Part shown: positions 1 through 36,301 of the stretch, one piece after another
Numbering within the stretch: position 1 is the first letter of the stretch
Layout: the number at the start of each line of letters is the position of its first letter
Notes under the pieces: generated by a model
What the model was told of the DNA's origin: nothing
The model's database searches: none
The model's input: the letters and a program-made list of their open reading frames with translations, nothing else
Assembly (NCBI RefSeq): GCF_029873635.1
Contig: NC_080422.1
Span: 18,780,049-18,844,048, forward strand
Length of the DNA: 64,000 nt
Direction: 5' to 3'
Source of the DNA: Malania oleifera
Taxonomy: Eukaryota; Streptophyta; Magnoliopsida; Santalales; Ximeniaceae
Made by a program: the position numbers and the translations under genes

Positions 1-11
1 GCAAAGAACAG

Positions 12-1160: not shown

Positions 1161-1168
1161 GGAGATTT

Positions 1169-1545
1169 GTTGGGCCCGCCTCATAAAAAAACAAAAAAAG
1201 AAAAAGAGGCAATGACTTGGTTGCCATTTGATAGTCAGACTTGGCTGCTGTTCGGTGCAACCATCTCCACCCACTCCTTTGAAAAAAAGGAGGAGAACTG
1301 ATGGTGATATTTTTGGAGGCGATTTGGGCTGCGATGATCTCTTCCTCGTCTCCTATAAAATGATTACTCCTCTTCCATTTTAGAGTGAAGGGTAAGACAC
1401 AACAAGTGTGAGTGTATACCCATATATATATATATAGTGAAGTTACTCCTCTCCCGTGGACGTAGGCTAAATTCGCCGAACCACGTAAATATTGTGTGTT
1501 TTTTGTGTATGTTATTTGATCTTGGGCGGGATTCGTATCCCAATA
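1169..1545 (+). repeat. 3' LTR of the Copia element
   Basis: It begins TGTTGGG directly after a purine-rich tract and ends CCCAATA, an imperfect inverted terminus. A TATA-like box lies at about 1352. A block at about 1452-1490 (GTGGACGTAGGC followed by GCCGAACCACGTAA) recurs near 43590-43620 in another Copia LTR, which supports the call. The partner LTR is outside the window. Confidence 0.75.
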
Positions 1546-1980
1546 GTGCATTTGGGCTGAATTAGTAGAATTGATTAGAGTACACTTCTTTTATTCCCTT
1601 GCCTACCTTCTTCCTAGTTCCTAGAGATGATATCGTTATTTTAATTTTCCAACTAGAAAAAATGATTTAGTGTGGTTGAAGACTTCAAAGATGGTTGTAG
1701 CCAAAGATTGTAGCTAAACTGCATTTGCTGAAATAAATGACTAGTGTATGCTGCACTTCCTCTCCCTCTCTCTCTCTCCATGCTTCCATGCCTGGTGCCT
1801 GCATGGATGGGGCTCAGCATTCAATGACATAAACTGTATTGGCATTTTATTGTTTTTCCAATTGAAATGTCTCGTATGAATTCCAACATACATACTTGTT
1901 ATGAATGTACTGAACAAATGAATATATGAAACTTCTGTCAGTCTATTGGATCAATACTTTTCTTATTTTATTCATTTTAG
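1546..1980 (+). other. Intron sequence upstream of the first visible ASI1-type exon
   Basis: No open frame or RNA gene is seen. It ends in a pyrimidine/AT-rich stretch and the acceptor TTTTAG at 1980. A CT-rich run lies at about 1760-1778. Confidence 0.6.
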
Positions 1981-2149: not shown

Positions 2150-5100
2150 GTTAGTTGTTATTTGTTCTAATTTAAATTGTGTTAATTTTTGACGGACTAT
2201 CATGACTATACCCTACTTTTAGGTGGAAGATTATTGCTAAGATTATACATTCAATCCTGTTTTGATTGCTGACAATTTGTTGATAGCAGTTGTTTTCCTC
2301 ATAACGATCTTGACTGTTCAAAAGTTTACATGGTGCCTCCAGAAATGTTTAATGCATCTGCTTCTTATCCATTTGTTCTAGAATTAGTATAGCTGAATGC
2401 ATGAATTTATTGCTTTGCCTCGAAATTATGAAGTTGATCCAGATGGAAATTGGTCCACAGGGATCTTGCATACACAGAATTAATTGCATGAATTTCTTCA
2501 TTGCCTGAATCCAACTATCATCACCTTCTTCATAAGATAATGGATCATAATCTGCAAATAGAGCAGAACTCACAACACCTTCATTAGATAAATCATTATT
2601 ATTATCAATAATATAATTGTGCAATTGGGCTCGTAAGTGGTGTTGACATTGCAAACAACATGAATGCTAGAAAAGGCAAAATTGTAAAAATGATGTATCA
2701 ACAACCTAATACTCTCTGGCCTTTCCAGAGTTTACATAAAAATATTGCTAGAGGTTTTGATGGCGGTTTAACCAATCCCAAGTGCTTCCTCATCAAAAGT
2801 TGCATCTAGTTAACTATCACCTTCCCGATAATTGAACAGAATGTATTCCTTTGTTCATGACTGTATCCAATCTAAAATTCTAAATACATATTTTTGCCTT
2901 ATCATCCATCTTTTGAATTGCATCAAGCACATGGGCATAGGCAATGTATCCAAACACCATAATGCATTTGGAATTTGACATTTGGCTGTTCTAGGCGTCT
3001 TGCGGGTCTTGTCACAATTGTTTCTACTAGGACATATGTTTAAAACATAAATAACACACACGAGCAATGTCTTTTGGCTTCTAGACAATTTTTTTGAGTG
3101 CATCATGGATCTAAGCATATCCATTACTGTCCTACTCTTCCTATATGCCACTCCATTCCATTGTGAACTGTATCTAGCTGTCAATTGGATTTTAATACCA
3201 TTTTTCATTTTAAAAAATCATCATAATCAGTGTTCTTCTTGCCCCTATTGGTTCTCAAAATTTTAATTGATTTCCTACTTATGATGAATCAAGTTTCTTA
3301 TATTAAAATCTCTTAAATGCATCAGAGTATTCAGATTTGTTTTCCAAAAATGAACATGCGCCTTCCGAATGTAATCATCAATTTGAAAGCAACAAAATGC
3401 CTACAATCACTAGTGGGAGGAGCCTCCACTAAACACAAACCTGAGCGCATCAACTATAATGGTTTCTTGGCTCTTGGGAATTGACAATATCCTTTCTGCT
3501 TCTCTCCTGAAACACTAGACTCACAAACTTTCCTGGATAATCAATAAATTGGAATTCAGAAGTAATTTGTTTAAGGCAAGAATTTTAGAACACAAATTTA
3601 AGTGTCCAAGCACATGGCAGCAATCATGAGAAATAATTGACCTAAAATAAATTTTCACAATTAATATTATCGAATCATATGATAGATCAGCTTTATCCTA
3701 ATCAAGAGGCACTGATACCAGTTGTACCGGGGTTGTCCTTAAAAGGAGGCTTGATAGACATAAACACCAACTTGACCCAAAAGCTTAACCATTTGGTCTT
3801 GGACCATCCATGCATAATAAGCCATTCTTTCTTTACTCAATTTTCTAATGTCAGACAACTCTAACAACTGGAATTCCAACTACCTAGTTTACAAATTCAT
3901 GTGGTCCCACATTTTAGAACACAGTTCTGGTTATTATTCAATGCATTGAGAAGGTACTTGATGTTTTTTATGAATGTGTGTACTCTATTTAGTTTTTGTA
4001 CCACACCCTTTGGTTTGTTCAACTTGGGGTTCATGCAACACTACTGTATCCATACCCATGTTTTGTCATCTCTAATATAATTAATTCACACATTTTGAAA
4101 TCTCAAATTTAACATAATGTTTTCATTTGTACGAGCAGAAATAAGAATGTGGTTTTGTTGCATGCTGAATGGCCACCTTTTCGCAAACTAAATGACATGG
4201 TTCCATCTGGACCATTACACTGGATTTGGGAACTTGGAGCTCGAGTCTTGGATTTCGAATGGAAAAAATTTGGTCCAAAAAATTTAGTGGAATGATGATC
4301 ATTAGTTCCATTTGGACCTTTCGTAGGCTGGTAGCCTCTTGGTCCTTTGGCTTTTATGAGTAGAATTTCTCGACAATTGTTGTTACCAATATAGGATGCA
4401 TATTTATTGCTTTCCGCAGGATAAAATTTGTAAATTATTATAGATTTGTTTCTCTATTTCTATATTTTTGTTTCAGAAGCATATGTTATAAAATCCTTCG
4501 CGTTCTTAAGATCATCTTTCTTGCTTGTAAACATTATCTTAGAATAATTTTTATTTTTAATTATCTGTAATCATGCTGTCTAGTTGTTTTTACTGCTTTG
4601 CAGTGGAATATTATTTTAACAAGAAAAAAGATCAAAACTTTGGTGCTCAAACCAAATTCAATGAAAAGTTGAAGGAAAGAACTGCAAAGTCTATTTCACG
4701 TTTGAATTTTTACACGGAAGCAGCAGCAACAAATGCAATGAAAAGTGGCATGTCTAGCACAAGGAGCCCCTTGGTGAAAGGTCATTTAAAATGAAAACTA
4801 CTTTGAATAATCTGTTTACTTTCAATTGGTTAAATGTAATTATCTTGTCTCACGCATGCAGAGTCAAAGAACGCAGTGGCTAGTTTGGGTAAACAAGCAC
4901 ATTGTCCTGATGAGAATAGTGCATTGAAAGCTAAAACTTTTACTTTGAGGACTGGGACTGGGACTGGGACTGGCAGTCCAGTTGAAAAAAATATGAGATA
5001 TAAGGATTCATCACCTATGAGTGCACCTGAGAATCGACCACCAAAGAAAAGGAAGCTTCTAGATTCTATGTCACTAGAAATCCAGTCCAATGCTTTGTTA

Positions 5101-8100
5101 GATCCTGGAGAAGGCAGTGATCCCAAAACCTTATGGGTGCCAAAAAATGCTTCTAAGGAAGAACTGATCAAGGGACTTCCTGCTAGCCAGAACAGGGGAC
5201 TTTCTACAGGGTTTATTCATGGGAATGTCAGCAGGATTTCTAATCAAGCAGTTTCTCAAACTGAACAGAATAAGGTAATCAAAACTGGCAACCAACTGCT
5301 AGAAGTTACCAGAAGGCCAGAAGCTGTAAGTTTTGAATATTTAAGGGTTTTTTTTCTTTTCTTTGTTCCTCAAAATAATTAGTTAAACAGAATTTTAAGT
5401 ATATCTAGAAGTTAATAATTTAACTGGTTTCATAGAAAAGTTTGATATATTCTCTGCAGCTCTGATAATTATGGTATTTATTTTAATTTTGGAAATTCGA
5501 ATATGAGAATAGTTATGGTCTGAGGAACTCGTTCATGCACAAAAAATATGACTTTAAGTGAGTTTACCTTACGACTTCAGCAGCAATTTTAATGCCTTTT
5601 CTTTCTGTACTTGCAGGATAGAAAGAAATGGTTCAAGCCACCGGTGAGTTATTACTCTTTGATATTATCCTCCAATACTTTCAATTTTGTTGTTTGATTT
5701 ATTCTTCCAAGTGTATGATGGAATTCCATTTGGAATGGTACTACATTGAGATGGAAAATCATCATGAAATCGTCAAATGCTTGAGGACTAAATGTAGGTC
5801 AGGAAGATAGAATGAAATAGTGGAATGCAAAAAGAAACAAAATGTGAACAAGATGTAGTAGAGATCACATGCATGAAAGTTTGAATATTCTTTGTAAAAT
5901 CTTTTTTTGCATGTGGGGTTCATTTTGACATCTTACTAAATGAAATCATTCTGTACATTACATGTGAAATGGTCATAGGCTCATTTGTAATAGATTTCAG
6001 AATTTTTTCTATTTCTGATAGGTTTATTGTTAATTACAAAGGCGCCGACGAGGGCACTACTCATAGCAAGTGCATAAAGGCCATAAACCTAAGGAATAAA
6101 AGGATTCCATCCACCTATACAAAATATGAGTATGAACCACATATTCAAAAAATGAGATAAAAAAAAAAAAAAATTACTAATTAGTGTAGTAGTGGAAAAG
6201 TTTCATCCCTCAAAGGATCCTCTTTATTTTGTCTGTTTTTTTTAAGTGCTCGACACAAGAGACGAAGGAGTCATAAGTAGAAGTACCCACCCTAAGCCTC
6301 CCATAGTGCATTTTATTTTACTTGTTATAATCCATCATATAGTAAGGGTATATTTTTAACTTGAGATCAGCCAAGCCTATATTTTCTTAATGCTTGGACT
6401 CAACTTGATTAATTGTCAGTATTGAGCTCGACTTCAATCCCCTAGTTATTTATATACTCTGTAGCCATGAGCATAAATTAACAGGGTTCCAGAATTGCCC
6501 AGCCGGGTTGGCTCAAGTGGTAAGGGCAACTCGTGACTTTGGTGATCACAAGGTCATGGGTTCGATTCCCCTTTGAGAGTTTACCCCAGTGAAAACAAAA
6601 TGGAATTTCTGTATTTCTTGAATAATTTTGTACAGACCAATTTGCAATATTTATAATACAATCAGAAGATCTAAATATGGAAATAATCTCCTAAACAAAT
6701 CTCTCTCAATAATATACAATATATACTTCCCTAAATTACTCCAAGATATTCAAAGATACTCGGGATTTCTACCCTCCCCCTCAAGTTGGATCATATATAT
6801 TGATCATATCCAACTTGCAAATGAAATCATTAAAGCTTTGGCGGGCTAATCCTTTAGTAAAGATGTCTGCAGTTTGTTCCTTGGTAGGTACATAAGTCAA
6901 ACAGATGGTTCCTTCTTCAACCTTCTCTTTGATAAAATGTTGGTCCACTTCTGCATGCTTAGTCCTGTCATGTTGAACTGGATTGAGAGAGATACTGATG
7001 GCTGCTTTGTTGTCACAATAAAGTTTGATAGGGAATTTCACCAGGATTTGTAATTCTTCCAAAAGTTTCCATAACCACAGTCTTTCACATATCCCTTGTG
7101 CAACTGCCATGAATTTAGCTTCAGCACTGCTTCGAGCCACCACATTCTGTTTTTTACTCCTCCAAGTTACCAAATTTTCCCATACAAAGGTGCAATATCC
7201 GGTGGTAGACCTTCTATCTTCCACTGATCCTGCCTAATCCGCATCTATGAAAATTTTTACTTCCTTGCTTTCACATTTCTTGAAGAAGAGTCCTTTGCCC
7301 GGAGAACCCTTGAGGTACCTGAGGATCTTATACATAGCATCTAGGTGAGTCTTTTTCGGTGAATGCATGTGTTGACTTACCACACTTACCACAAATGCAA
7401 TGTCGGGCCTGGTATGCGATAGGTATATTAGTTTACCAACCAATCTCTGATACCTCTCATTTTCAACTGGTATTCCGCAGTCTTCGACCCTTTTTACTGC
7501 TTCAATCGGGGTTTCACTAGGTTTACATCCAAGTATGCCAGTTTCGGTTAGGAGATCAAGGATATACTTTCGCTGAGAGACATTGATACCCTTTTTTGAT
7601 CTAGCAACTTCCATTTGTCCAAGAAGTACCACATTTGTCCTAGGTCTTTAACTTCAAACTCAGCAGTTAGGACTTTCTGTAATCTTTCCATCTCCATTGT
7701 ACCATCTCTAGTTAGGATTATATCATCAACATACACTATAAGAATTGTTTTCTTATCACTTTCAGACTGTGGGAAGAACATAGTGTAATCTGATTGCCCT
7801 TGTCGATATCCTTGATTCTTTATCACTTTCGCAAATCTGTCAAACCATGCTCTGGGAGATTGCTTGAGTCCATACAAGGACTTCTTGAGTTTGCATACTC
7901 AGTTTTCTTCACCTTTCTTACTGAAACTTGGTGGTAGTGTCATGTAGACTTTTTCTTCTAACTCGCCATTTAGAAATGGATTCTTAATGTCGAGTTGCTG
8001 TAGTGGCCAATCTAAGTTAGCTGCCAAAGGCAGGAGGACCTAAACTGTATTCAATTTTGTCACTAGTGCAAATGTCTCTGTGTAGTAAATGCCATAGGTC

Positions 8101-11100
8101 TGTGTAAACCCTTTTGCAACGAGTTTGACTTTATATTTTTCAGCTGTTCCATCAGCTCTATATTTTACTGTGAAGACCCATTTACAACCAACTAGCTTCT
8201 TCCCTCTGGGAAAATTCATAGCATCCCAAGTTCCATTCTTTTCCAGAGCCCACATTTCCTCCATGACAATTTCCCTCCATTTAGGAATCTCTAAGGCTTC
8301 CTGGATATTCTTTAGAATTTTTATCCTGTCAAGGTTAGAAGTAAAAGCACGGTATTCTATAGACAGGCTTTTATAAGACATGTATTTTGACCAGGGATAT
8401 TGAGTACATGACCTTGTTTGTTTTTTGACTGCAATGGGTAAATTGATCTCATCAGGTACAGGCTTATCAAAAGGGAGCTCATGACACCATCTATTACCTG
8501 ATCGGGATTGGGCGTGGACTCATGGTTGCTCGGAGCTATCACTGGTTCCAACTCTCTTGGTGCCTCAGGTATGAGATTCTCCCTGTTCTTTGTGTTTGAC
8601 TTTCTTGAGTAAACAAGTATTTTTGTGTTTTGTTTTTCTGCATCTCCCCTCGAGGTTAAGTGATCTTTTGTACATGACAGGTCAAGAAATGATGCAATGG
8701 TAGACTCAGTGTATGGCATAGATTCATCAACAGGGAAATCCAAGAACCGATCTTCACTCCATTCCCCCCCTGAAGTGAGAGCTTTGGGAAGTAAGGAGTG
8801 GTTTTGAAGAACTGACATCAAGGCAAACAAACAATTTTTTTTGTGACATGATCATAACATTTGTAGCTTTTCTGAGTAGGAGAGTAACCAATAAAAACGC
8901 ACTTAATGGCACGAGGTTCCATTTTATCCCTATTGTGAACATGAACATGAACAAATGTAGTACATCCAAAGATTTTCAGAAAGAGATTGGAGTGGAGCTG
9001 AAAGTTGGGAAAACATTCTTTGGAATTTTTGGAGAGGGGTGGCAAAAGAAAGAACCCGACTAGGCATTCGATTAATGAGATATGTAGCCGATAAAATGGC
9101 ATCGCCCCAAAAATATTTTTTCATATTTGTAGTGAACATTAATGCCGGAGCTACTTCAAGAATATGCCTATTTTTGCGTTCGGCAATCTCATTTTGTTGA
9201 GGGGTATTCACACTGGAACTTTGATGAACAATTCCATTTTCTTGAAGATAATGTCCCAAGATATTATTGAAATATATACCATTATCAGTTCGTAAAATGT
9301 GAATGTGAGTTTGGAATTGTGTTTTAATCATGAAGTGAAAACTGGCAAAAATAGAACGAATTTCAGTTTTATCTTTTAACAAGTAAACCCAACAAATACG
9401 AGTATGATCATCAATTAAAGTAACAAATCATCTTGTGTGAGTGCGATTAAAAGGGCGTGAGGGCCCTTATAAATCACTGTGAATCATAGTAAATGGTTTG
9501 GATGGTTTGTATGTGGATTTTGGAAAGGAATTATGTTGGTGTTTTGCAAGTTCACAAATCTCACACTGAAATTCAGAAGACGTTTTATTTGAACAAATTG
9601 AAGGAAATAAACGTCTTAGATATTGAAATTTTGGATGACCCATCCTAAAGTGCCATAACAAAATTTCACTATCCCTAGAAATAGATGTAGAATAACAAAT
9701 AGCAGTTTCACATTGTTCACTCACATTTGCCTCCTCAAAGTAGTAGAGTCTCTTACACTCCTTAGCACTGCCAATCATCTTCCCTGATGATAGGTCCTGA
9801 AAAACACAATGAGAGGGAAGAAATTTAGCAAAACAATTGGAATTCTGAGTCAACTAGCTAATATATAGTAAGTTGTAGGATAAATTAGGAACATAAAGAA
9901 CGAACTCTAGTGTGATGGAGTCAGAGAGTCGGATATTCCCTTTGCCTGTGACAGACGAGAGTGATCCATTTGCAATTTTAACTTTCAAATTTCCAGCACA
10001 GGGTGAATATGATGAGAAAAGATGGTAAGGATCAGTAATGTGGTCAGAAGCACCAGAATCAATAATCCAAGGGGTTTTGGATCTAGAGGTTATACTCAAG
10101 GCTTGCAAAAAATTACCTCTTTGGGCTAAAGAATCCAAAGAAATATTTGTGGAAGACAAAGCTCCGTAATAACTAACTGAAATCCTCCAATAGAGTTTCA
10201 CGAGGTTCTCAGTTTGCGATTTGCCCTGTCTCTCGGTTTGCCCGTTAGTCTCCAAGTCTCTGTATTTTTGTCTCTCTAGCAATCTCACGAACAAACCAGA
10301 CAAGTCCTCAGCTTGTCTCCACTTCGTGTCCGACTGCGACAACTCAAGGCTCACTTTTTCATGCGTGCTTGGAGAGGGTTTTGGCATGGAAGGAATCATC
10401 CTTGATGATGATGACGTTGATGAAATTGAAGCTTTGCGACACAAGATCAGGCGGTCAGCAACATCAGTAAACAACTGTACATGATCAACCGAATTGCTTG
10501 TAACCTCAAAGAGAGCCAAGTGGAGGGAGGCAAAGAGAGAAGTGAAGCTCTCGGCGATGGCGACAGAGTCTCTCTCGACGGCTTCGAGAGCCTTAAGAAT
10601 CTCTGCCTGATTGAACGAGGGTTTCGGCTCACCGCCATCGATTTCGCTTCTTCTCGAGTGTCGGAAGAGTTCAGGCGAGATGTGGGCGGCGGCTGATCTA
10701 GGCCGAGTCCTAAAACTAGGGTTCCTGGGTTCGTCAAAGGATCCATGGAAGCTATCTTCTGCCCTTCTTCCACTTTCCCATCCCGGTTATCGACTGGCAA
10801 TGCGGCCAGGATGCTAGAGGTCTCCGCCTGCAGGATCCGCGTTGAAGTCGGTGATGCTCTTTATTTGTGCCGACGTCGCCAGTGCAGAAGATGTCGTCCT
10901 CGTCGAGCTCATTGCCATTGCCCCAACTGACTGCGGTTTTCGGTTGAGATAGAGAGCGGACGTTGAGGAATCGATCGGACGAAGGAGCTATGCTATTGAC
11001 GGTTCCTTCCGCCATTGTTAAGTAGGATTATAGAAACCCTAGCTCTGATACCATGAAAACAGAATGAAATTTCTGTATTTCTTGAATAATTTTGTACAGA

Positions 11101-14100
11101 CCAATTTACAATATTTATAATACAATCAGAAGATCTAAATATGGAAATAATCTCCTAAACAAATCTCTCTTAATAATATACAATATATACTTCCCTAAAT
11201 TACTCCAACATATTCAAAGATACTCAGGATTTCTACACCCGGTGAATTACCAGGGGTGCGTTAATGGGCAAGCGGCTTTTATCCTCGCGGGTTTGGTGTC
11301 GCACCATAGTATCCAAATTGACGCGATGGTGGCTGGAGTCCTCGAGTTTAAAAAAAAAAGGCTCCAAAATTTGCATCAAGCCCCTACCCTGCATGTGTGA
11401 CAGTGATCCTGATGGTGCATGGAGGTAAACAAACAATGAGAAAACCCATAGGGGAGGATAACAACATCCAACTTAGGACAGTTAAACGAATTAGAAGAGA
11501 AGGGTGAGCAACAAGAACAAGATGTCGGAGATAACTGGATATCATGTTAAGTCACTTATTAACTTAAAAGCTTAAGTTGTTAGATTATAGGCCAATGATG
11601 TACAACAAGCCTTACTATATAAAATATAATTGTAGAAATCCCTAGTATCTTGGAGGAATTTAGGAAGGTATTTATGTAGAGGATTGTATATTATTGAGAG
11701 AGATTCTTTTAGGAGATTGTTTCCATATTTAGAATTCCTGAGTGAATTATAAATATAGTGTATTGGCCTTGTACAAATTATTCAAGAAATATAGAAATTA
11801 TTCATTCTGATTTCATGGTATCAGAGCTAGGAGATTAAACCTAGCTATCAATGGCGGAAACCGCCGGCCAAAGTAGAGGTTCGATGACCTCTGAATCTCA
11901 TGAGGTCCTCAAGCAGAGTTCCCCAAGGTTCGAGTACTCCATGGATTCCTCTTTGTCACTAGCATCATCGCTGCATCTAGCCATCTTCGTCTTGATTGGT
12001 GCCTCCGCTAGAGCATCGCCAAGGCCCTCTTCGCCTTCTACTAGAAGTACATCGATGAGCAATCCAAAAAGGAGATCAATGACATCTTGGTCTGCTACGA
12101 CCGGACCCTCCTCGTTACCGATCCTCGGTGGTGTGAACCCAAGAAGTTCGGTGGTCGTAGTGCTCGCTCCAGGTTCCAGAAGTCCTACCGCTACAAGGCG
12201 CTGGAACCCGTCCTCCTACTTGGCCGCCACCACTTCAACGGCGTCGACATGCGCATCCGTGTCAAGGGCGAAGGCCACACCACCCGATCTACGCCATCCG
12301 CCTTCTACATTCACAAGCACAGCGTCGACCAGGTCCTCAACCGCCTCATTGACATCTGACGCAAGCTTCCTCCCGATAATGCTGACCGTCACTCTGCATT
12401 GTGTGGCCAAGAAGAAGAAGAGGAAGGACGAGAGCGATACGTTGACATCCACCTAGACTTTGACGTTTTTGGTTCTGACAGAGAAATTGGGATTGATGAG
12501 AAAATGTTGAGGCGATTGGCGGACCAGACCTCGTTTAGTTATTATAGAGCTTTGTCTTCCACAAATATTTCTTCGGGTTCTTTAGCCCAAATAGGTAATT
12601 TTTTGCAAGCCTTGAATATAACCTCTAGATCCAAAACTCCTTGGATTATTAAGTCTATTGCTTCTGACCACATGACTGATGCCTATCATCTTTTCTCATC
12701 ATATTCACCCTGTGCTGGAAATTTGAAAGTTAAAATTGCAAAAGAATCACTCTCGTCTGTCGCAGGCAAAGGGAATATCCGACTCTCTGACTCCATCACA
12801 CTAGTGTCCGTTCTTCATGTTCCTAATTTATATCTGCAACATCCATTAGCCAGTTAACTAAGAATTCCAAATGTTCTACTAAATTTCTTCTTTGTCATTA
12901 TGTTTTTCAGGACCTATCATCGGGGAAGACGATTGGTAGTGCTAAGGAGTGTGAGGGACTCTACTACTTTGAGGAAGCTAATGTGAGGGAACAATGTGAA
13001 ACTGCTATTTGTAATTCTGCATCTGTTTCTAGGGATACTGAAATTTTTTTATGCCATTTTAGGATGGGTTATCCAAATTTTCAATATTTATGACATTTAT
13101 TTTCTTCCATTTGTTCAAATAAAATGTCTTCTGAATTTCAGTGTGAGACTTGTGAACTTGCAAAACAACAACGTGATTCCTTTCCAAAGTCCACATACAA
13201 ACCATCCAGACCTTTTACTATGATTCACAGTGATTTATGAGGGCCCTTACGCTCTTTTAATCGTACACACATGAAATAGTTTGTTACTTTTATTGATGAT
13301 CATACTCGTATTTGTTGGGTCTACTTGTTGAAAGATAAAACTGAAGTCCGTTATATTTTTGTTAGTTTCCACTCCATGATTCAAACACAATTCCAAACTC
13401 ACATTCAAATTTTACGTACTGATAATGGTACAAAATATTTCAATAATATCTTGGGACATTATCTTCAAGAAAATGAAATTGTTCATCAACGTTCCTGTGT
13501 GGATACCTCTCAACAAAATGGGATTGCCGAACGCAAAAATAGGCATATTCTTGAAGTAACTCGAGCGTTGATGTTCACTACAAATATGAAAAAATATTTT
13601 TGAGGCGATGCCATTTTAATAGCTATGTATCTCATTAGTCGAATGCCTAGTTGGGTTCTTTCTTTTGCCACTCCTCTCCAGAAATTCGAAGAATGTTTTC
13701 CTAACTCTTGGCTCCACTCCAATCTCTCTCTAAAAATTTTTGGGTATACTGTATTTGTACATGTTAATGGTCATAATTGGGATTAAATGGAACCTCGTGC
13801 CATTAAGTGCGTTTTTATTGGTTACTCTCCTACTCAGAAAGGCTACAAATGTTATAATCCTGTCACAAAAAAATTGTTTGTTAGCCTTGATATCATGTTC
13901 TTTGAAACCACTCATTCAGAAAACCCTCTTTTCAGGGGGAGAAGTGGAGTGAAGATCAATTCTTTGATTTCTTTGTTATTGAATCTGTGTCATATACTGA
14001 GTCTCCCATTGCATCATTTCCTAAACTGTCATGTGCAAAAAATCACTTAAACTCAGGGGAAGATGCAGAAAAACAAGGAAATACTTGTTTACTCAAGAAA

Positions 14101-17100
14101 GCCAAAAAAAAAAAAAAAACAGTGAGAATCCCATACCTGAGGCACCAAGAGAGTTAGAACCGGTGATAGCTCTGAGCAACCATGAGTCCACGCCTAATCC
14201 CGATCAGGTAATAGATGGCCATAAGCTTCCGTCTGATAAGTTTGCACCTGATGACATCAATTTACCCATTGCAGTCAGCAAACAAACTAGGTCTTGTACT
14301 CTATATCCCTGGTCAAAATACATGTCTTATAAAACTCTGTCTACATAGTATCGTGCTTTTACCTCTAACCTTGATAGGATAAAAATTTCAAAGAATATCC
14401 AGGAAGTCCTGGAGATTCCTGAATGGAGGGAAGTAGTCATGGAGGAAATGTAGGCCTTGGAAAAAAATGGAACTTGGGACGTTATGAATTTTCCGAAAGG
14501 GAAGAAGCTAGTAGGCTGCAAATGGGTCTTCACAGTGAAATATAAAGCTAATGGGACAATTGAATAGTATAAAGCCTGACTTGTTGCAAAAGACTTTACA
14601 CAGATCTGTGGCATTGATTACACGAAGACATTTGCACCAGTGGCAAAATTGAATATAGTTCGGGTCCTCCTGTCCTTGGCAGCCAACTTAGATTGGCCAC
14701 TACAGCAACTCGACATTAAGAATGCATTTTTGAATGGCAAGTTAGAAGAAGAAGTCTGCATAATGATACCACTAGGTTTCAATAAGAAAGGTGAAGAAAA
14801 CAGAGTATGTAAACTGAAGAAATCCCTGTATGGCCTCAAGCAATCTCCCAGAGCTTGGTTTGATAGATTTGCAAAGGTGATAAAGAACCAAGGATATCGA
14901 CAAGGACAATCAGATCATACTATGTTCTTCCAACAGTCTAAAAGTGGAAAGAAAGCAATTCTGATTGTGTATGTTGATGATATAATCCTAACTGGAGATG
15001 ATACAGTGGAGATGGAAAGATTGAAGAAAGTCCTAGCTGCTGAGTTTGAAATTAAATACCTGGGACAAATGCGGTACTTCTTGAGAATGGAAATCGCTAG
15101 ATCAAAAAAGGGTATCAGTATCTCTCAGCGAAGTATATCCTTGATCTCCTAACAGAAACTGGCATGCTTGGATGCAAACCTAGTGGAACCCCAATTGAAG
15201 CAGTAAAGAGGGTTGAAGACTGCGGAATACCAGTTGAAAATGAGAGGTATCAGAGATTGGTTGGTAAACTAATATACCTATCACATACCATACCTGATAT
15301 TGCATTTGAGGTAAGTGCGGTAAGCCAACACATGCATTCACTGAAAAAGACTCATCTAGGTGCTGTGTACAAATTCCTTAGGTACCTCAAGGGATTTCTG
15401 GGCAAAGGACTCTTCTTCAAGAAATGTGAAAGCAAGAAAGTAGAAATTTTCACAGATGCAGATTGGGCAGGATCAGCAGAAGACAGAAGGTCTACCACCG
15501 GATATTGCACCTTTGTATGGGGAAATTTGGTGATTTGGAGGAGTAAAAAACAAAATGTAGTGGCTCGAAGTAGTGTTGAAGCCAAATTCAGGGCAGTTGC
15601 ACAAGGGATATGTGAAGGACTATGGTTACGGAAACTCTTGGAAGAATTATAGATCCCAGTGAAATTCTCTATCAAACTCTACTAGGACAACAAAGCAGCC
15701 ATCAGTATCTCTCTCAATCCAGTTCAACATGACAGGACTAAGCATGTAGAAGTGGATAGACACTTTATCAAAGAGAAGGTTGAAGAAAGAACCATCTGTA
15801 TGACTTATGTACCTACCAAGGAACAAACAGCAAACATCTTTACCAAAGGGTTGGCCAGATAGAGCTTTGATGATTTCATCTGCAAGTTGCATATGATCGA
15901 TATCTATGATCCAACTTAAAGGGAAGTGTAGAACTTCCAAGTATCTTGGAGGAATTTAGGAAGGTATTTATGTAGAGGATTGTATATTATTGAGAGAGAT
16001 TCTTTTAGGTGATTGTTTCCATATTTAGAATTCCCGAGTGTATTATAAATATTGTGTATTGGCCTTGTACAAATTATTCAAGAAATACACAAATTATTCA
16101 TTCTGATTTCAATAATAAAGTAGAAGAAGCTCACTTTGGTTTTCTTTTCCTTTTTGATGCAAAATGAAAGATTTCATTATAAAAGAAACAATGTACGTGA
16201 AGGAGAATAAAAATCCTCTTAAATAGAAACCCAAAAAAAAAAAGAGACAAAAATCAAACTAATAATTCCTGGCAAGTGACAATACTGCTGAAGATCTGAA
16301 GAACACATTCCTTTAAAACAAGAAACTGCAAAAGCCCAAAGAAAAGGCATATATTGCATAGTATTCTAGAGCAATGATGCCGCCATCTTCTTGCTTGTAA
16401 AGATAAGCTTGTTCCATTCCAAACAAATACCCCAAAAACCTGGCAAGTGGCAATACTGCTGAAGATCTGAAGAACACATTTCTTTAAAACAAGAAGCTGC
16501 AAAAGCCCATAGCAAAGACATATATTGCATACTATTCTAGAGCAATGATACACCAGCTTCTAGCTTGTAAATATAAGCTCGTTCCATTCCAACCAAATAC
16601 CCCCAAAACCAAAAAAACCCTACCAATCAAATTCCCCACAACAACACAAAAGCCATACGTCCCCACAAATCTGTGGCATCTTTACTTGTACCAAATTCTC
16701 CAAAGGAAATAGCCAAAAGATCTTCCTCCGACTCTAAACCAACCCAATTCTCACCAAATAATCTGAACAATGTATTTCATGCACTCCAATTTGTGCTTTG
16801 ACAGCTCTTCGTTCTTCTTCTAATAAAATCCTATATATTACCCATCAAAAATAAAATAAAATAGAATGAGAAAAGCTCTATTAGCCTTGGAAGCCTATCA
16901 AGTGGAGTATTATGGGGCTCAAACTTGAATATAGTTGAGCCCAACCAAGTTGTGGGACTAGTTCAGCTCTAGTGGCTGACAAGCTGGCTTGACTCTCACC
17001 CCATCAGAAACAAATTGAGATCTGAACCCACTTCTCTAGCGATCCTGTGGTGGATTAGGAGATGATGAACACACTTGGCATCTTCCTTACACATGTAGCA

Positions 17101-18369
17101 ACTGATCACCACTAAAGCAGCCTCTCTCAAGTAATTTTCCCTAAAGATGGCCTCCCAAATCACCGCCCAAGAAAAGATTGCATGTTTTTAGGGGGGCCCT
17201 GCTCAGCATAACTCCACTCCTCTTTTCCATGGGTAAGTATTCTGCTCCTTTTTCTTCAGTAATTGATAAAAGAATTTGACTGAGAAGGCTTTGTTTCTAT
17301 TTTTGCTCTGCAATTCATCTCATCTGCTTTTTAAGGGTTTAAAGAAGCATCATAAACTTTTGCGAAAAAAATCCTCCACCAGTTGAATTCTAAAATGCTC
17401 TGTGAAAAGCTTTACTCCAAACTGTCTGAATACCTGACAAAGTAAGCAAGGCAGCAAGCCAGGCATCTAGCCCTCTTTATCTAGTGTCTCCCAAAAAGCT
17501 CCAGATACACCTTTTTGAGAGGTACATTCCTACACCATACATCTAGCCTAAGCCTGATTCTATTCCATTTCGTTATCATAAAGTCCATAGAGTCATAACT
17601 TAAGATCTCTGATTTTCCAAATTCATTTACACCTCTCTTGTTGCAAGACCAATTACTCAAAATAGTTGCAATTCACATGAATAAAACTAGTACATAGGAC
17701 TTATATAGGCTTGCAACGCTTGGAGAATTGGAAAAGTAAATATAGAATCTGAAATAAACCAGAATACTACTTTCCTGAAAACTAGTATCTTATAATCATA
17801 AAGATGCTACCCAGTGAAAATAAACAAAAATATCATAGATTTAAAAATGAAAATTTATTTATTCACCTTTTTTTACCATGTTGTACTGTGCCAATCTTCT
17901 CGATTGGGGAAAAAAAATCACACAGCCTTGAGTTAAAACGGGCATACACTATACTAATTTAGGAAAGTAGAGCTCACATGAATCTTAGGCTCGTTTTTCT
18001 TACCTTCTGCAGCCTCCATCATGGTGACATGAGTATTCCTTGTGTAGTTGTTATATAACTGTATTTTTGAGATATAAGAAAGAGATGTACTTCAAGTTAC
18101 GTGCATTGGCTCAACACGTTAGAGATGATGACGTATGCACACTTGCGTTCCCCCAATTGGATGCTTGATGTTCTTTTGATGGAGATGAACAACAATGTTT
18201 GGAGACTTCGTTACCAATCACACATTGAGTAGCAATCTAATGAATATATTCACATGATCAAATAGCCTCAAGCTCCTCTTCAGTAACAGGTTGCTCCTAG
18301 TATCTAGAGTGCTGAACTCCAGTAATTCCAGCAAAGTTCATGTATCCACTGGTTCTGCATACAACCACT

Positions 18370-18416
<47 letters not shown>

Positions 18417-21400
18417 TTTTAAAAAAACCAACAATTCTAGTCCCAAATTTCTCATCTTTCTCAACCTCCTTGTCATCAATAATGTTGTTGCTGATATGGT
18501 TCACCCCTTTACGAGCTATTAATATTGTGGAAAAGCTTGTAGTATTATCGCCTTCTTTCAATCACTACCTGAATGACAGACATCATGTGGAAATCTTGAA
18601 ATTGTTTTATTGGTCAACCCATTCAGTTGAGACTCAAATCCTCTTCTCTTGCTTATTAGTTCTCAAGTTAAGTGCAATTCTCAGAATGGATTTGATTGTG
18701 ATCCTGCAGATTTATACAACAGTTGTACAGATCCTTTAAGAACGTCTCTGAATTAAATACCATATCTTGCTTTGATGGCAAATTTTGCTTTGTTACTCCT
18801 AAATGAATGTCCATCCTAGAAGTTGGGCCAATTGCAGACCGTATGAGAGCAAGCCAGCTAGAATGATGGTTGTCCATGACAGTGATAAGTGATGTTCCAG
18901 CTGGCCCATTTGTCTGCTCGTTTCCTGACCTGCTGTGCAATTAAATTTAAAAATGGATGATCAATTTGAATGCAAGATGTCAAGTCTCCGCATTACCTAA
19001 AAGCTTAAGCTTTTATGTAGCAGGCGAACAATTTTTACTTAGCCATTCAATGTTCCCCCTCTTGCGACTGCATCTGCATGTGAAGAGGCAAACAGATGAA
19101 CTTGAACAAGTGCACGAACACAAGTAGAACTGCACTATGATGGACATAAATGGGGGAAACCACATGTAACGAGACTTGAAACCAAGACCTCATGGAACAA
19201 TAGCTCTTACCATATTAATTTACCAATTTAACTTTAAAGCTTAAGCTGTTTCAATTTATACTAAGGTAGTGAACCCAATAAATTAATTAAGCTATAGACT
19301 CATTGTGGTCTGCCCCTTCCCTGGACCCCCATATGTGGGAGCGTCATGCGCTGGGCTGCCCTTTTTAATTGGGCATGAGACATGGATTTCCTGAATTAGC
19401 TGACAAAGTTCACTAAAATCCTCCATGCCATATGTTGTAACTCTAAAAAACTATTCATACATAGCCATAAAAGTTGTGACACTCCAGTTTCTTAATCGTT
19501 TGGGGCTTTTTTATATTAATTCAAAAATAATAATTATAATTCTTTGTGCTTTCTTTTAATTTGAATTTTAATAACTTGGAGCAGATTTTGACACTTGGTG
19601 AAGCTTAAATTTTTAACAAAATAGTGTAATAGTTCACTTTCTTTTAGCCATGATATTTATAAACTTTCTTTTTTCCAGCCTTGGGATGAAAGGATGCAGA
19701 ATGCCCAGAGACAAGGAACCCTTGTCTTACTAGAAAATCTTGATCCGTCCTCCACATCATCAGAAGTAGAGGTATGTATATAAAGGATGTGATAGATCGT
19801 AAAAGCATTAATTCTATTGTCCAGTTGAATATGCTTTGGGGTATTTGTTTATTTTTAATATTGATTCCATGAGTGCACTGTTCATACTAGTATGCTACTG
19901 TTTGATGAAAATTTTGGTTAAACTTGGGAAGTACCCAGATTTATAGTGAGAGTACCCTCTAGACCTTGTTCCAGAATATGTACTAATTAAGCTCTACTCT
20001 CTGCATTACTGCAGATGAGAGATAGAATTTCTTGTCGAAAATTCTAATCAATTTTCAATTTGTTCACAAATAACAATTTAGCTTAAGATGTCCAAATTAA
20101 AGTATAATTTGAACAAAGTTAACAACAGGGCATTATATACCTGTGATTCCTGAGTGCAGTAGGTCTTGTATCTTCTTGCAGACATTGAATGTCCTTGTGC
20201 CTTTATTCCTTCTTTTATTTTATTTTAAAAAAAAAAAAATTTTCATGGAAACACATGGAGTGGACTTCAATATTGTCAGTTGGGCTGTGTATCTTTGCAT
20301 TTGGTTTGTTTTTGACCTGTTTCCAAGTGGCTGAGCCTATCCTGAACTGAGAACAGAATGAAAACTATAAAAACCAAGTCTTGGTTGAATGGTTGGTTTG
20401 GCTATGTTTTGATTTTTAGTATTTTAATCTAATTTTCTAGATAAAATTTTTTAGTACTTTCTTTCCTGGCCCACTCACTGCTGGCCACCAAAAAATACTT
20501 TTTTGAAGTGATGTCAACCCAAAGAATTTGGCTAAAACAGACTGGGAAAAGGCCCATTGTGGCTATAGAACCCTGCCTAATTGTTATAGAATCTGCTTAT
20601 TGCACCAAAATATTTAGTTTAAAATAAATATTAATATTGATTATGATAAATCAAAAATTATGAGTTCTTGCCGAAGAGCCAAATAACAGGAAAAACAGAA
20701 AATATGCATGTATTTAATTACAAAAGTGCTGCCTCCTAATCCCTTCCGAGATTGGAAAGTGAGCAATCCTTAAAAAATTGTCTGAAAGGAGCATGTTATA
20801 TAGATTATTTGAACCATATATTATGCTGAATGGCTTGGTTCGGGATATGCAATTTATATCTTAATCTACTATGGGTAGATATTAGCTGCAAATTATGGAT
20901 AACCATGCAATTTGGTATAGTATCAAAATCCTTATTTGATCCTTCACTCTTTTTTTCCTTGTCAGGATATTGTTTCATGTGCTTTTAATGAGAAGGTTGT
21001 AGCAAGGGTGATAGAACGTACTACATTTTGTAGCCCACACTATGGTATGACATTTTACTATTGCTCTTCCTTCCATCATTCATCAAACTATTTTGTTGAC
21101 CAATTTATTTCTACAAATAGGCTATGACAACATTTAAATAGCTGGTCTGAGTTATTCTTTCCTTTGCTATCAGGACAAGCCTTTGCTATATTCAGATCAA
21201 AGGATAAAGCAGATTTGGCAATTTCAGAGTTAAAAAGGAGGTGCCTGATTCTAACGAGTGGAAGGTAAACTTATTTGCATTTCTAAAGGTCGTTTTCAAA
21301 TCATATTCCCTTGTGTTGGTCATTCTTGGCATTTAGTGCCTCTGCTATTTTATGTTCATGGTTTCTAAGCACATGAAATACTGGTGTCCAGTTTAATAAA

Positions 21401-22567
21401 TAAGTTGGAATGACCTTGGTAAAATTAACCCAGCAACTATCGAAAGAAATTATCTATAAACTGTCAATTGCCATGTCAAGCATTTAATCAGCAATCTATC
21501 TTGTATGTTCAATAATTTTTTAACCATTTTGTTATTTCAATCTTCTCATGATTTATCTTGAAATGACAAGAATAGTAATGCTTGCTTACGTATGTTGGAT
21601 TATTGAGTTGTCTTAGTCTATGTGCCTTGCTATCAGCATGGAGCCAAAATATCCTATGCTCTTTTAAGGCATTTAGAAGAGTAATTTAACTTCTGCATTT
21701 CAAAGAAATTGAGCTCAAAAGCTTTTGTTCTGCTGTAAGAGATCAGTTTACGTTTTATCAGTCCCCAGGTGGCTTGATGTGTTGATGTAGCAAAGAAACA
21801 AGTTAACTTGGCTTATGATCAAGCAAACTATTGACGGCATCTCAACAAAATGTTTTGGCACATTACTGATGCACTTATGTCACTTTGTTTGATTGTTAGA
21901 CCGGTCATTGGTAGCAGAGTAAGCCCTAGGGAGCCAACTAAACCAACTGCATATGCTGGCCATCTCATTATCAACAGATTCAAGCATCTAAAGCAGCGCG
22001 AAGAGATGGTTAGTAATAGTCTATACCTTGATTTGGATTTCTTTATTTTTATTTTTTTTTTGGGATCCATTGGAGGCTTGGGCCTAGGGTACACAACAAG
22101 AAGTAGCCCATCTTCTATCTTATATTCCTTCCCACTTCTCCATGGTTCCAACCCAGCACTTCAAACATGGAAGTCTGGTGGGCAACTTGATCCCACTTAG
22201 GTAAGATGATTGGAGCAATGCTTGCACATTGTTGCTTTATTCATTTTTGCTGCATAAACCAGAATGAAATACATGCATCTGATTATGAAATCTTCTCCAT
22301 TTTTGTACTTTCTTTTTTAAAGAGAAATGCAGTGTCAACATCACATTATGCGCAGCCCAATACCATTGAATACGAGATGGCTATGGATTGGCGTATTTTG
22401 CAAGAAAAGTCAGATATATGGTGGAACAAATTGCATGAGGTGCCCTTGATATAAGATCCATTCTTTTTGTTTATGCTTAGTTACTAACTTCGCGTGTGTG
22501 GGCTTCTTTGCAGCAACAAGCTAATGAGATAGAGGTTGTTAGGAGCCAGCGAAAAGATTTAATTTAG
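1981..22567 (+). CDS. ASI1: ASI1/IBM2-type BAH and RRM protein, 3' ten exons (5' end off window)
   Basis: Joining 1981-2149, 4604-4780, 4862-5325, 5617-5643, 19679-19771, 20966-21044, 21174-21264, 21900-22008, 22323-22439 and 22514-22567 gives 1380 nt, i.e. 459 codons plus TAG, with GT-AG borders and phases that all agree. Order of parts: the end of a BAH domain ([24 protein letters not shown]), a charged linker with the basic run PPKKRKL, the motif KKWFKPPPWDER, an RRM with RNP2-like LVLLENL and RNP1-like GQAFAIFR, and a tail with [18 protein letters not shown]. This order matches Arabidopsis ASI1 (IBM2/SG1), a nuclear RNA-binding protein that promotes distal polyadenylation across introns with heterochromatic transposons. 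The BAH N-terminus lies left of the window. The 14-kb intron falls between BAH and RRM. No inactivating change is seen. Family assignment is strong; expression is unknown. Confidence 0.93.
2150..4603 (+). other. ASI1-type intron, 2454 bp
   Basis: It runs from GTTAGT to TTGCAG and holds a reversed Copia remnant (2349-3560). The rest shows no gene. Confidence 0.85.
2349..3560 (-). pseudogene. Copia remnant: integrase and start of reverse transcriptase
   Basis: Read on the minus strand from about 3560 to 2350. The stretch at 3208-2855 shows decayed integrase-core signatures ([19 protein letters not shown]). The stretch at 2654-2349 shows the leader of Copia reverse transcriptase ([19 protein letters not shown]). 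Stops and frameshifts are frequent and no LTR was found, so this is an old fragment inside the intron, antisense to the host gene. Confidence 0.75.
4604..4780 (+). CDS. ASI1: ASI1-type exon b
   Basis: The split codon G|TG opens [11 protein letters not shown]. The exon runs through a lysine-rich linker to SPLVKG/E. Acceptor is TTGCAG at 4603 and donor GTCATT at 4781, a weak but GT donor. The next intron is only 81 bp. Confidence 0.88.
4862..5325 (+). CDS. ASI1: ASI1-type exon c: linker with nuclear-localisation run
   Basis: The largest exon. It encodes a low-complexity linker with a TGTGTGTG run from a GGGACT hexamer repeat (about 4948-4973) and the basic stretch RPPKKRKL, a likely monopartite nuclear-localisation signal. 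It ends [10 protein letters not shown]. Acceptor is ATGCAG at 4861, donor GTAAGT at 5326. Confidence 0.93.
5617..5643 (+). CDS. ASI1: ASI1-type 27-nt micro-exon
   Basis: Nine codons, DRKKWFKPP, between acceptor TTGCAG and donor GTGAGT. It continues in phase into PWDER at 19679, rebuilding the W-F-x-x-x-P-W block conserved in this family just before the RRM. Confidence 0.9.
6499..6589 (+). mobile_element. tRNA-derived SINE, 5' part (Au-SINE-like)
   Basis: A polymerase III A box (TGGCTCAAGTGG, about 6511-6522) and B box (GGTTCGATTCC) lie about 50 bp apart, as in tRNA-derived plant SINEs. The sequence breaks at 6589 where a Copia LTR begins and resumes at 11243. A degenerate target duplication of about 12 bp (6487-6498) matches 11362-11374. 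Confidence 0.78.
6590..6772 (-). repeat. 3' LTR of Copia 1
   Basis: About 183 bp, nearly identical to 11054-11237. On the minus strand a GAGGGGGAGG purine tract (about 6773-6785) precedes it. Confidence 0.92.
6781..10519 (-). pseudogene. Copia 1 polyprotein remnant: protease, integrase, RT, RNase H
   Basis: Read from 10519 leftward. Protease with intact DSGASDH lies within 10519-9854. The pre-integrase zinc region (HFRMGHP...CEICELAKH) is at 9853-9467. The integrase core with TDNG and [12 protein letters not shown] is at 9382-8930. The end of integrase and the linker are at 8969-8357, reverse transcriptase at 8381-7548 with LYVDD-type motif VYVDDII, and RNase H at 7632-6781 with YCDNKA and ADIFTKGL. 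The pieces lie in different frames with stops between them. It is closely similar by eye to the + strand copy at 12540-15870 (for example two mismatches in 33 bp near 7360). Confidence 0.9.
10400..11015 (-). other. GC-rich host-like segment at the gag position of Copia 1
   Basis: Between the primer site and protease, where Copia gag is expected, the sequence becomes clearly GC-richer. It reads on the minus strand from ATG at 11015 ([13 protein letters not shown]) and in another frame at about 10670-10450 as an amphipathic segment ([20 protein letters not shown]). Neither resembles Copia gag or a zinc knuckle. By analogy with the uS9 capture in Copia 2 it is probably a captured host exon or exons. 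I do not recognise the donor gene. Confidence 0.55.
11042..11053 (-). other. Primer binding site of Copia 1
   Basis: On the minus strand TGGTATCAGAGC lies directly after the 5' LTR, matching the 3' end of plant initiator Met tRNA. Confidence 0.9.
11054..11237 (-). repeat. 5' LTR of Copia 1
   Basis: 184 bp, TGTAGAAAT...TTTTCA on the minus strand. It pairs with 6590-6772 and is related to the LTRs at 11632-11815 and 15927-16111. Confidence 0.93.
11243..11359 (+). mobile_element. SINE, 3' part, with A-tail
   Basis: It continues the element broken at 6589 (TTACCAGGGGTGCGTTAATG region) and ends in an A-run at 11350-11359. The candidate target duplication copy follows at 11362-11374. Confidence 0.72.
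11360..11631 (+). other. Intron spacer between the two head-to-head Copias
   Basis: No gene or repeat recognised. Together with the SINE end it forms the short loop between the two 5' LTRs. Confidence 0.6.
11632..11815 (+). repeat. 5' LTR of Copia 2
   Basis: Starts TGTAGAAATCCC and ends TGATTTCA. It pairs with 15927-16111 with a handful of differences. Confidence 0.95.
11816..11831 (+). other. Primer binding site of Copia 2
   Basis: TGGTATCAGAGCTAGG directly follows the LTR, the standard plant Copia site matching initiator Met tRNA. Confidence 0.92.
12003..12295 (+). pseudogene. RPS16: Captured, permuted fragment of ribosomal protein uS9 (RPS16) inside Copia 2
   Basis: Two blocks of cytosolic 40S protein S16 (uS9) are fused in the wrong order. 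Block A (about 12003-12191) encodes the C-terminus: [41 protein letters not shown] and the terminal FQKSYR, with two in-frame TAG codons near its start. Block B (12192-about 12290) encodes an earlier part of the same protein, [20 protein letters not shown] then [10 protein letters not shown], after which the frame slips. The native stop is missing and the blocks join at CGC-TAC-AAG, a possible microhomology. No introns are seen. It sits between the primer site and protease, where gag should be. Recognition of uS9 is firm; the capture route is inferred. Confidence 0.9.
12296..12535 (+). other. Second non-Copia segment in the gag position of Copia 2
   Basis: It follows the uS9 blocks and is still GC-rich at first. 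In one frame it encodes a run of glutamates then [19 protein letters not shown] before merging with Copia protease sequence near 12540. It is not recognised as uS9 or gag and may come from a second captured gene. Confidence 0.4.
12540..15910 (+). pseudogene. Copia 2 polyprotein remnant: protease, integrase, RT, RNase H
   Basis: The protease region at 12540-12857 aligns with Copia 1, but the catalytic DSG reads KSI, so it is inactive. The pre-integrase zone is at about 12860-13240. The integrase core is at 13325-13603 ([16 protein letters not shown]) and continues with stops to about 13950. Reverse transcriptase is at 14390-15152 with VYVDDII intact. RNase H is at 15164-15880 with FTDADWAGS. 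At least ten stops or frameshifts are visible. Confidence 0.9.
15927..16111 (+). repeat. 3' LTR of Copia 2
   Basis: TGTAGAACT...GATTTCA, preceded by purine tract AAAGGGAAG. Being in sense, it could offer a polyadenylation site inside the ASI1-type intron (inference). Confidence 0.94.
16130..17600 (-). pseudogene. LINE fragment: zinc-binding region downstream of reverse transcriptase
   Basis: Read on the minus strand from about 17600 to 16900, interrupted frames resemble the plant LINE region after reverse transcriptase: [20 protein letters not shown], then [19 protein letters not shown] and VHHLL. The CxxC...H pattern is that of the zf-RVT segment. The lower part (16130-16880) has no clear coding similarity and contains the tandem duplication. 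Confidence 0.6.
16268..16609. repeat. Tandem duplication, two units of about 171 bp
   Basis: The segment starting CTGGCAAGTG at about 16269 repeats at about 16440 with roughly 90% identity by eye. The offset of the GGCAAG word is 171 bp. Confidence 0.9.
17601..19678 (+). other. Remainder of the giant intron
   Basis: AT-rich non-coding sequence ending in the acceptor TTCCAG. It includes an (AT)n run at 18372-18412. No host exon or recognisable transposon was found. Confidence 0.6.
18372..18412. repeat. (AT)n microsatellite
   Basis: About 20 uninterrupted AT dinucleotides. Confidence 0.97.
19679..19771 (+). CDS. ASI1: ASI1-type exon e: start of the RRM
   Basis: 31 codons, [14 protein letters not shown] then RNP2-like [17 protein letters not shown]. 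Acceptor TTCCAG at 19678 ends the giant intron; donor GTATGT at 19772. Confidence 0.94.
20966..21044 (+). CDS. ASI1: ASI1-type exon f: RRM middle
   Basis: Encodes [21 protein letters not shown] then CSPHY and one base of a glycine codon. Acceptor is TTGTCAG, donor GTATGA. Confidence 0.93.
21174..21264 (+). CDS. ASI1: ASI1-type exon g: RRM RNP1 strand
   Basis: The split glycine is completed, then [20 protein letters not shown] follows (RNP1-like GQAFAIFR). It ends in a split arginine before donor GTAAAC. Confidence 0.94.
21900..22008 (+). CDS. ASI1: ASI1-type exon h
   Basis: Completes the arginine and encodes [20 protein letters not shown] and [16 protein letters not shown]. Acceptor is TGTTAG, donor GTTAGT. 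Confidence 0.93.
22323..22439 (+). CDS. ASI1: ASI1-type exon i: conserved C-terminal block
   Basis: 39 codons with [20 protein letters not shown] then [19 protein letters not shown]. The acceptor is AAG at 22320-22322; the donor GTGCCC is weak. Confidence 0.9.
22514..22567 (+). CDS. ASI1: ASI1-type last coding exon
   Basis: [17 protein letters not shown] then TAG. The acceptor TTTGCAG closes a 74-bp intron. Confidence 0.9.
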   Translation, partial: QQANEIEVVRSQRKDLI

Positions 22568-36004: not shown

Positions 36005-36301
36005 CTAATCCTTGGAGGACTTGTTGATGAGAGACTTGTGGATGTGAGGGATTACTCCACCACCGGCAATGGTCCCTTTGATGAGGGTGTCCAGCTCTTC
36101 ATCTCCCCGGATGGCAAGCTGCAAATGCCTCGGGGTTATACGCTTCACCTTCAGATCCTTGCTGGCATTCCCTGCCAGCTCCAGCACCTCAGCAGTAAGA
36201 TATTCCAAGATTGCTGCTGTATAAACTGCAGCTGTTGCTCCAACCCTTCCATTCGCAGAAACCCTGGTCTTCAGGAATCGGTGGACACGACCCACCGGGA
36301 A
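36005..36301 (-). CDS. H2A.Z: H2A.Z exon 2 (histone fold)
   Basis: Begins FPVGRVHR directly after acceptor CTGCAG (36302-36307). It covers the whole histone fold, the docking domain and the C-terminal KSSKD, then stop. Confidence 0.95.

Follow-up and report, generated by a model that had tools for sequence, protein, structure and literature searches.

Premature polyadenylation within heterochromatic introns follows loss of IBM2 (PMC10241880), and rice that has lost OsIBM2 shows the same defect at genes whose introns are heterochromatic (PMC7145194). The first of these sources describes IBM2/ASI1 and EDM2 as likely suppressing proximal polyadenylation in heterochromatic transposable elements (TEs), with no significant change in CHG methylation. 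ASI1 itself, a BAH-then-RRM protein, is called unique in Arabidopsis (PMC3880313) and single-copy in rice (PMC7145194). Two further genes are relevant as models: IBM1, whose heterochromatic intron is presented as a sensor of histone H3 lysine 9 dimethylation and is enriched in CHG methylation in 27 of 65 orthologues (PMC11265718), and human CstF-77, in which transcripts end prematurely in a large intron that combines a weak 5' splice site with a conserved size (PMC3708835). Here, we examine an ASI1-like gene of Malania oleifera that lies within, and partly upstream of, a 64,000-nucleotide stretch of the 1.49-Gb genome (C6:18780049-18844048), which we refer to as the window; upstream sequence was added to complete the gene model.

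The gene is intact, and by its placement in protein trees it belongs to a sister clade of ASI1 (“clade B”) that occurs across eudicots. Two of its introns are giant and loaded with TEs. With middling confidence, we read it as a BAH and RRM gene swollen by transposons which, if intron 5 is heterochromatic, would be a one-way client of the canonical ASI1 encoded elsewhere in the same genome. The gene model is as follows, in window coordinates unless marked C6.

C6:18758057-18758410, plus strand: coding exon 1, 354 nt, its end 21.6 kb upstream of the window
1-1980, plus strand: 3' end of intron 1 (whole intron 23,619 bp), from the gene model
1981-2149, 4604-4780, 4862-5325, and 5617-5643, plus strand: coding exons 2 to 5 (second part of the BAH domain, linker)
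5644-19678, plus strand: intron 5, 14,035 bp, donor GTGAGT, acceptor TTTCCAG, phase 0/0
19679-19771, 20966-21044, 21174-21264, 21900-22008, 22323-22439, and 22514-22567, plus strand: coding exons 6 to 11 (RRM, C-terminal helix, stop)

These 11 coding exons give an intact spliced open reading frame (ORF) of 577 residues, and every intron is GT-AG. The NCBI protein P0002 (ANTI-SILENCING 1-like isoform X2, 560 residues) equals our model minus 17 residues that come from an alternative exon-4 donor. As the two are identical otherwise, the annotated isoform joins exons over both giant introns, with exons 1, 2, 5, and 6 connected in frame in the annotation. An earlier note on this DNA had placed a 14,035-bp intron exactly at 5644-19678, between the BAH exons and the RRM exons, and this is borne out by the splice sites, the phase, and the domains on either side. 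The same interval was also considered as the outstanding intron of the gene, and this was rejected: intron 1, at 23.6 kb, is larger, and it interrupts the BAH coding region. By eye, from ORFs and direct repeats, intron 1 contains two elements, of which one resembles Gypsy and has long direct repeats, while the other resembles Copia and has its 3' repeat at 1173-1543.

The two domains were recognized in different ways, the BAH by its Pfam profile and the RRM from a structural model. Before intron 5, the Pfam BAH profile matches residues 47-141 at 1.9e-12 (47.6 bits, cut-off 30.8), and the top Foldseek match is the rice ASI1 BAH structure 7xpj (E 2.5e-22, template-modelling score by target length 0.93, 54% identity over 161 columns). 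Pfam RRM_1 reaches 14.7 bits in the window gene, under its cut-off of 20.7, and 23.2 bits, above it, in the sister copy on C3. An AlphaFold2 model of P0002, built on a 43-protein alignment, places elements in the order b-a-b-b-a-b at 395-474 (b1 395-401, a1 407-418, b2 423-427, b3 438-443, a2 447-460, b4 469-474), with 10-residue means there of 77 to 98. The C-terminal half is thus predicted to fold as an RRM. Over the whole model, the predicted template-modelling score is 0.41 and the mean predicted local distance difference test score 68.3; the BAH is confident and the long linker disordered. The 50 Foldseek matches listed are BAH-containing entries, so that they are uninformative on the RRM. 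In passing, a chain of PDB entry 7xpk also matches the ASI1 BAH, though a table in a review names 7XPK as rice SUVH6 (PMC7617993); the entry may hold both.

Which gene, then, is ASI1 in Malania? A genome search with the window protein gave 18 matches: nine in the window gene, four in a gene on C3, and five at lone places resembling exon 6. The C3 gene (C3:81000374-81013149) is intact, with 10 coding exons and 648 residues, and is identical to the NCBI entry “protein ANTI-SILENCING 1.” Most of its exons agree with those of the window gene in length and phase. Where the window gene has intron 5, the C3 gene has an intron of 981 bp; the longest of its introns measures 5,016 bp. Protein searches gave 593, 266, and 513 matches, of which the best 120 each were considered, and trees were made from sequences picked by hand, numbering 69, 67 (66 plus one PDB chain), and 42. 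Across these three, the clade with the C3 gene (clade A) had support of 73, 96, and 100, and the clade with the window gene (clade B) 100, 99, and 98, the second of these values being 87 once Telopea P0139 is included. Arabidopsis ASI1 (P0228), present in the 42-sequence tree only, falls with Malania C3 in eudicot clade A (100). In the 67- and 42-sequence trees, cacao, Quercus lobata, Telopea, and Camellia sinensis each have at least one protein in both clades. Persea P0193 moves from clade B in the 67-sequence tree (93) to clade A in the 42-sequence tree (89); the deep rooting is unstable, and it is the eudicot A/B split alone that recurs among the trees. We considered whether the window gene is “the” ASI1 gene, that is, the orthologue of Arabidopsis ASI1, and rejected this on its clade-B placement and the intact clade-A copy on C3. 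What the earlier note had called an ASI1-type gene is accordingly a member of the BAH/RRM family and not the orthologue.

Some relatives have no recognizable RRM in their records. In a hand-picked set, an RRM match at 1e-3 is missing from 8 of the 35 proteins in clade B and from 2 of the 18 in clade A; these counts give no frequency, since a BAH-only query in a search limited by length was the source of many of the proteins, and some records are partial. Among those in clade B are the ASI1-like protein P0217 and P0152 of a poplar hybrid (327 residues, a cluster of 35 member sequences), in which, by eye, BAH and linker run straight into a C-terminal tail like that of the last exon.

In intron 5 of the window gene, Copia sequence accounts for 9,129 of the 14,035 bp (65%), in two elements, and the main components of the intron are these.

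6484-6589, plus strand: head of a SINE-like repeat (short interspersed nuclear element; 862 first-look candidates, 40 scored; SINE label by eye)
6590-11237, minus strand (antisense): Copia-1, long terminal repeats (LTRs) 6590-6772 and 11054-11236, 97% alike, target-site duplication CCCAG/CCCGG
11631-16111, plus strand (sense): Copia-2, LTRs 11628-11815 and 15924-16111, 95% alike, target-site duplication ATAAT on both sides
6590-10176 and 12535-16111, no strand: arms of an inverted repeat, 87.4% over 3,609 columns, loop 2,358 nt

The LTR edges given for Copia-2 are about three bases wide of the TG start, and an RVT_2 domain lies within this element at 14580-15152 (1.6e-56). The LTRs differ at 6 of 183 positions in Copia-1 (Kimura two-parameter distance 0.034) and at 10 of 188 in Copia-2 (0.055). 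At a rate that we take to be 1.3e-8, the insertions would be 1.3 and 2.1 million years old, respectively, and judged by their LTRs both are young. Most of the length of intron 5 was gained through these two recent insertions. The family is abundant, with 1,833 first-look candidates in the genome, the 40 that were scored all being 89-100% alike. Copia-1 has apparently divided the SINE-like element, whose head ends at 6589 and whose tail begins at 11238 (by eye). The earlier note had described the intron as largely Copia, SINE, and LINE (long interspersed nuclear element) sequence. The Copia part holds on LTRs, target-site duplications, and RVT_2, and the SINE part as a repeat labelled by eye; a LINE could not be confirmed, the 1 kb that was checked (16630-17630) being single-copy beyond its first 160 bases. 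Two further observations concern the same family. A third copy, oriented like Copia-2 and 79% alike to Copia-1, lies upstream of exon 1 at -29053 to -25519 in window coordinates. In addition, Copia-2 contains a rearranged fragment of ribosomal protein S16/uS9 at 12045-12359 (best E 1.3e-36).

It is worth asking how unusual such introns are in this species, whose published genome is 82% repeats and 29.5% Copia, with 24,064 genes (PMC6377399). Our control consisted of introns in kinesin and myosin heads only, measured between neighbouring exon pairs (68 kinesin and 43 myosin pairs, out of 147 and 79 matches, with 122 of 228 and 65 of 99 candidates scored); pairs separated by more than 12 profile positions or 100 kb were excluded, and short introns within one match are uncounted. 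Of these 111 introns, one was at least 14 kb and three were at least 10 kb long. The longest of the kinesin set was 12.3 kb, with none at or above 14 kb; the myosin set had one of 24.4 kb, and two of its exon sets extend over 44.6 and 87.2 kb. Two introns of such size in one gene sit in the tail for the Malania genome, yet they are not outlandish. The origin of the gene's architecture, TE expansion, is ordinary; the details are unusual.

One of those details involves exon 6, the first exon after intron 5, which proved to lie in a segment shared with a family of PIF/Harbinger transposons.

19672-19931, plus strand: segment common to the gene and the PIF/Harbinger family (3' splice site, exon 6, and 160 nt of intron 6)
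C1:113173541, C4:108908574, C3:95842639, C13:1886435, C2:5506328, C5:90829109, and C2:135627248: places of the other copies of this segment, the last with the intron part only

The segment, which starts seven bases before exon 6, recurs at these seven places at 72-89% likeness, and all seven belong to one repeat family (five plus two compared). Domains were checked in two copies. In one (L030), PF13359 (DDE_Tnp_4) scores 31.7 bits against a cut-off of 24.8 and PF12776 (Myb_DNA-bind_3) 75.2 bits against 23.6; in the other (L028), PF13359 scores 16.4 bits, under the same cut-off. The captured exon is antisense to the transposon's own genes in both. Inverted termini are visible by eye at the element ends, and the target duplications, which in such elements would be 3 bp of the form TWA, are not clean. 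In a search with the whole gene region, the likeness to the gene starts at 19672 in four copies out of five and at 19684 in the remaining one, and in all five it stops between 19928 and 19934; such consistent edges suggest that the segment was captured once and then amplified. The longest stretch of exact identity with the gene is between 21 and 40 nt in the five copies, and 55 of the 93 bases of exon 6 lie under an exact 21-mer of some copy. An antisense or small interfering RNA (siRNA) action of these copies on the gene is conceivable. Separately, the window contains an ORF at 36005-36364 on the minus strand, 13 kb downstream of the gene, which from its sequence we take to resemble histone H2A.Z, a chromatin gene.

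How might these pieces fit together? Plants normally silence the young members of abundant Copia families. In a genome rich in repeats, transposons have enlarged the introns of a clade-B gene, and the Copias of intron 5 would, as usual, be silenced in place. RNA polymerase II would then have to traverse heterochromatin within intron 5, and full-length mRNA would need ASI1-AIPP1-EDM2 to suppress cryptic intronic polyadenylation, a function known in Arabidopsis and rice that we infer here. The canonical clade-A gene on C3 is the obvious candidate to supply the ASI1, in which case it would be protecting its TE-loaded sister. Several points weigh against this account. The heterochromatin in intron 5 is an assumption, and the gene may simply be spliced. 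The sequence footprints that could stand in for methylation are indecisive and point both ways: the observed/expected ratio of CpG is 0.54 and 0.51 in the two Copias versus 0.37 in the exons, whereas the differences between the Copias, described below, lean towards methylation. The contrast with C3 has its own limit, as the check for TEs there consisted of comparing the C3 introns with the window locus, which gave one 277-base match. Finally, neither a test of clade-B function nor any paper on clade B was seen in the literature searched.

The plainest competitor is that intron 5, though long, is spliced normally, its TEs having no regulatory effect on the gene. We regard this as possible, if somewhat unlikely. 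The donor GTGAGT appears strong by eye, without scoring; the model uses GT-AG splice sites throughout; the isoform X2 protein spans the intron; and the kinesin and myosin control shows giant introns in other conserved genes. Within the Copias, counts of the polyadenylation motif AATAAA are at or under the expectation from base composition (3 versus 2.9, and 1 versus 3.8). Over intron 5 as a whole the counts point to neither side (14 versus about 12 expected), and against a neutral intron stand the 9 motifs, versus 4.2 expected, found towards its 3' end. The usual silencing of abundant young Copia families also tells against a neutral intron, as does the need for IBM2 at heterochromatic-intron genes in two species (PMC7145194, PMC10241880). 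A different role is offered by the inverted repeat. Copia-1 and Copia-2 are divergent, so that 6590-10176 is complementary to 12535-16111, and the pre-mRNA could form a 3.6-kb hairpin, 87% paired. We propose this hairpin, which the earlier note does not mention, as the part of the intron best placed to bring about silencing in cis; it could also draw the splice sites of intron 5 closer together. Dicer might cut the stem into siRNAs that methylate the intron and, in trans, the sister Copias, such that the gene would feed the silencing of its own element. In favour of this stands, besides the length and likeness of the arms, the pattern of C-to-T differences between the Copias, which are commoner at CG (73/354) and CHG (91/552) than at CHH (312/2,611), as methylation would leave them; these counts sum both directions, use Copia edges up to three bases off the final ones, and cover the whole history of the elements. 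Yet the 12.6% mismatch would make for imperfect double-stranded RNA, and chance can produce inverted pairs when a family has many copies, which leaves the siRNA proposal unlikely in our estimation.

The earlier note had gone further and proposed that the gene could regulate itself if intron 5 is methylated: its own protein would be needed for read-through of intron 5, low levels giving RRM-less transcripts and sufficient levels full-length ones. The anatomy on which this was built stands. The gene's BAH-RRM product belongs to the right family, intron 5 lies exactly between the two domains, and the claim that ending in intron 5 gives a BAH protein without the RRM is upheld by the reading frame, which meets a stop 17 codons past exon 5 to give a predicted 414-residue protein. 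There is also precedent in the feedback of human CstF-77 through its own intronic polyadenylation (PMC3708835). The remainder of the argument fares less well. An unsuccessful passage of the larger TE intron 1, which must be passed first, would yield a predicted 144-residue half-BAH. That note had named a second intact paralogue supplying all ASI1 function as a point that would tell against self-regulation, and structurally such a paralogue exists, intact on C3 with no intron above 5,016 bp; given this canonical ASI1, a one-way dependence of B on A is likelier than a closed loop. The recent date of the Copia insertions also makes it unlikely that autoregulation is a design conserved over long periods, and the corresponding intron of C3 is short. 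As for the truncated form, the Arabidopsis allele sg1-1, predicted to lack the RRM, is reported to behave as a mutant (PMC3880313), so a form without the RRM probably falls short of a full ASI1. In rice, lines truncated downstream of the RRM are reported to be less affected than those truncated in the BAH region (PMC7145194), from which a BAH-containing product may keep some activity; by analogy with these lines and with poplar P0152, a partial role of the RRM-less form is conceivable. No Malania RRM-less protein was seen among the best 120 of 266 matches, where 90% clustering could hide one. Taken together, we judge the self-regulating gene to be quite improbable. An elaborate combination, which we consider very improbable indeed, would add a double feedback, with siRNAs from the Copia hairpin keeping intron 5 methylated, so that mRNA length reports the silencing state of the Copias, and with antisense RNA or siRNA from PIF/Harbinger copies acting on exon 6 of the RRM and the 3' splice site in front of it, an active transposon thereby pushing the RRM-less form.

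We return to the one-way dependence on canonical ASI1 and to why the locus matters. Several eudicots have a second, sister-clade BAH-RRM gene, despite the description of ASI1 in Arabidopsis and rice as unique or single-copy. The window gene is a candidate client of the very machinery its family builds, and in Malania the two genes together provide a natural setting in which to ask if canonical ASI1 protects a paralogue loaded with TEs. Two further candidate routes to silencing are the inverted Copia pair and the antisense exon carried by a DNA transposon. If none of these holds, the locus is still a clear case of giant TE introns being tolerated in a regulatory gene.

Set beside the systems already described, the gene is both familiar and distinct. 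It shares the BAH-then-RRM architecture of ASI1/IBM2/SG1 (At5g11470) and OsIBM2, and its BAH is near that of rice 7xpj, but it belongs to clade B and its RRM falls under the Pfam cut-off. Like IBM1, it belongs to the chromatin regulators and has an intron, rich in TEs or repeats, on which the choice of a short or a full-length mRNA could depend; the methylation of the IBM1 intron has been measured and that of intron 5 is putative, and the insertions here are young and absent from the sister gene at this position. FPA, an RNA 3'-end factor, is autoregulated by its own intronic polyadenylation, and together with CstF-77 it provides a working model of what a loop would look like. The window gene differs from CstF-77 in its donor, GTGAGT (by eye), and in an intron size that is 14-fold apart between sisters (14,035 versus 981 bp). 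Plant inverted-repeat siRNA loci have in common with it a long inverted repeat within a transcribed unit, the difference being that this one, a putative source of siRNAs, consists of two separate full Copia insertions. PIF/Harbinger transposons can capture gene fragments, and the family found here conforms to that type in its DDE_Tnp_4 and Myb_DNA-bind_3 domains, its inverted termini (by eye), and its piece of host exon with flanking intron; what sets it apart is that the piece comes from an ASI1-like gene and runs antisense to the transposon genes in the two copies tested. The gene with a TE-loaded intron is thus a known kind, encountered here within a little-studied sister clade of ASI1.

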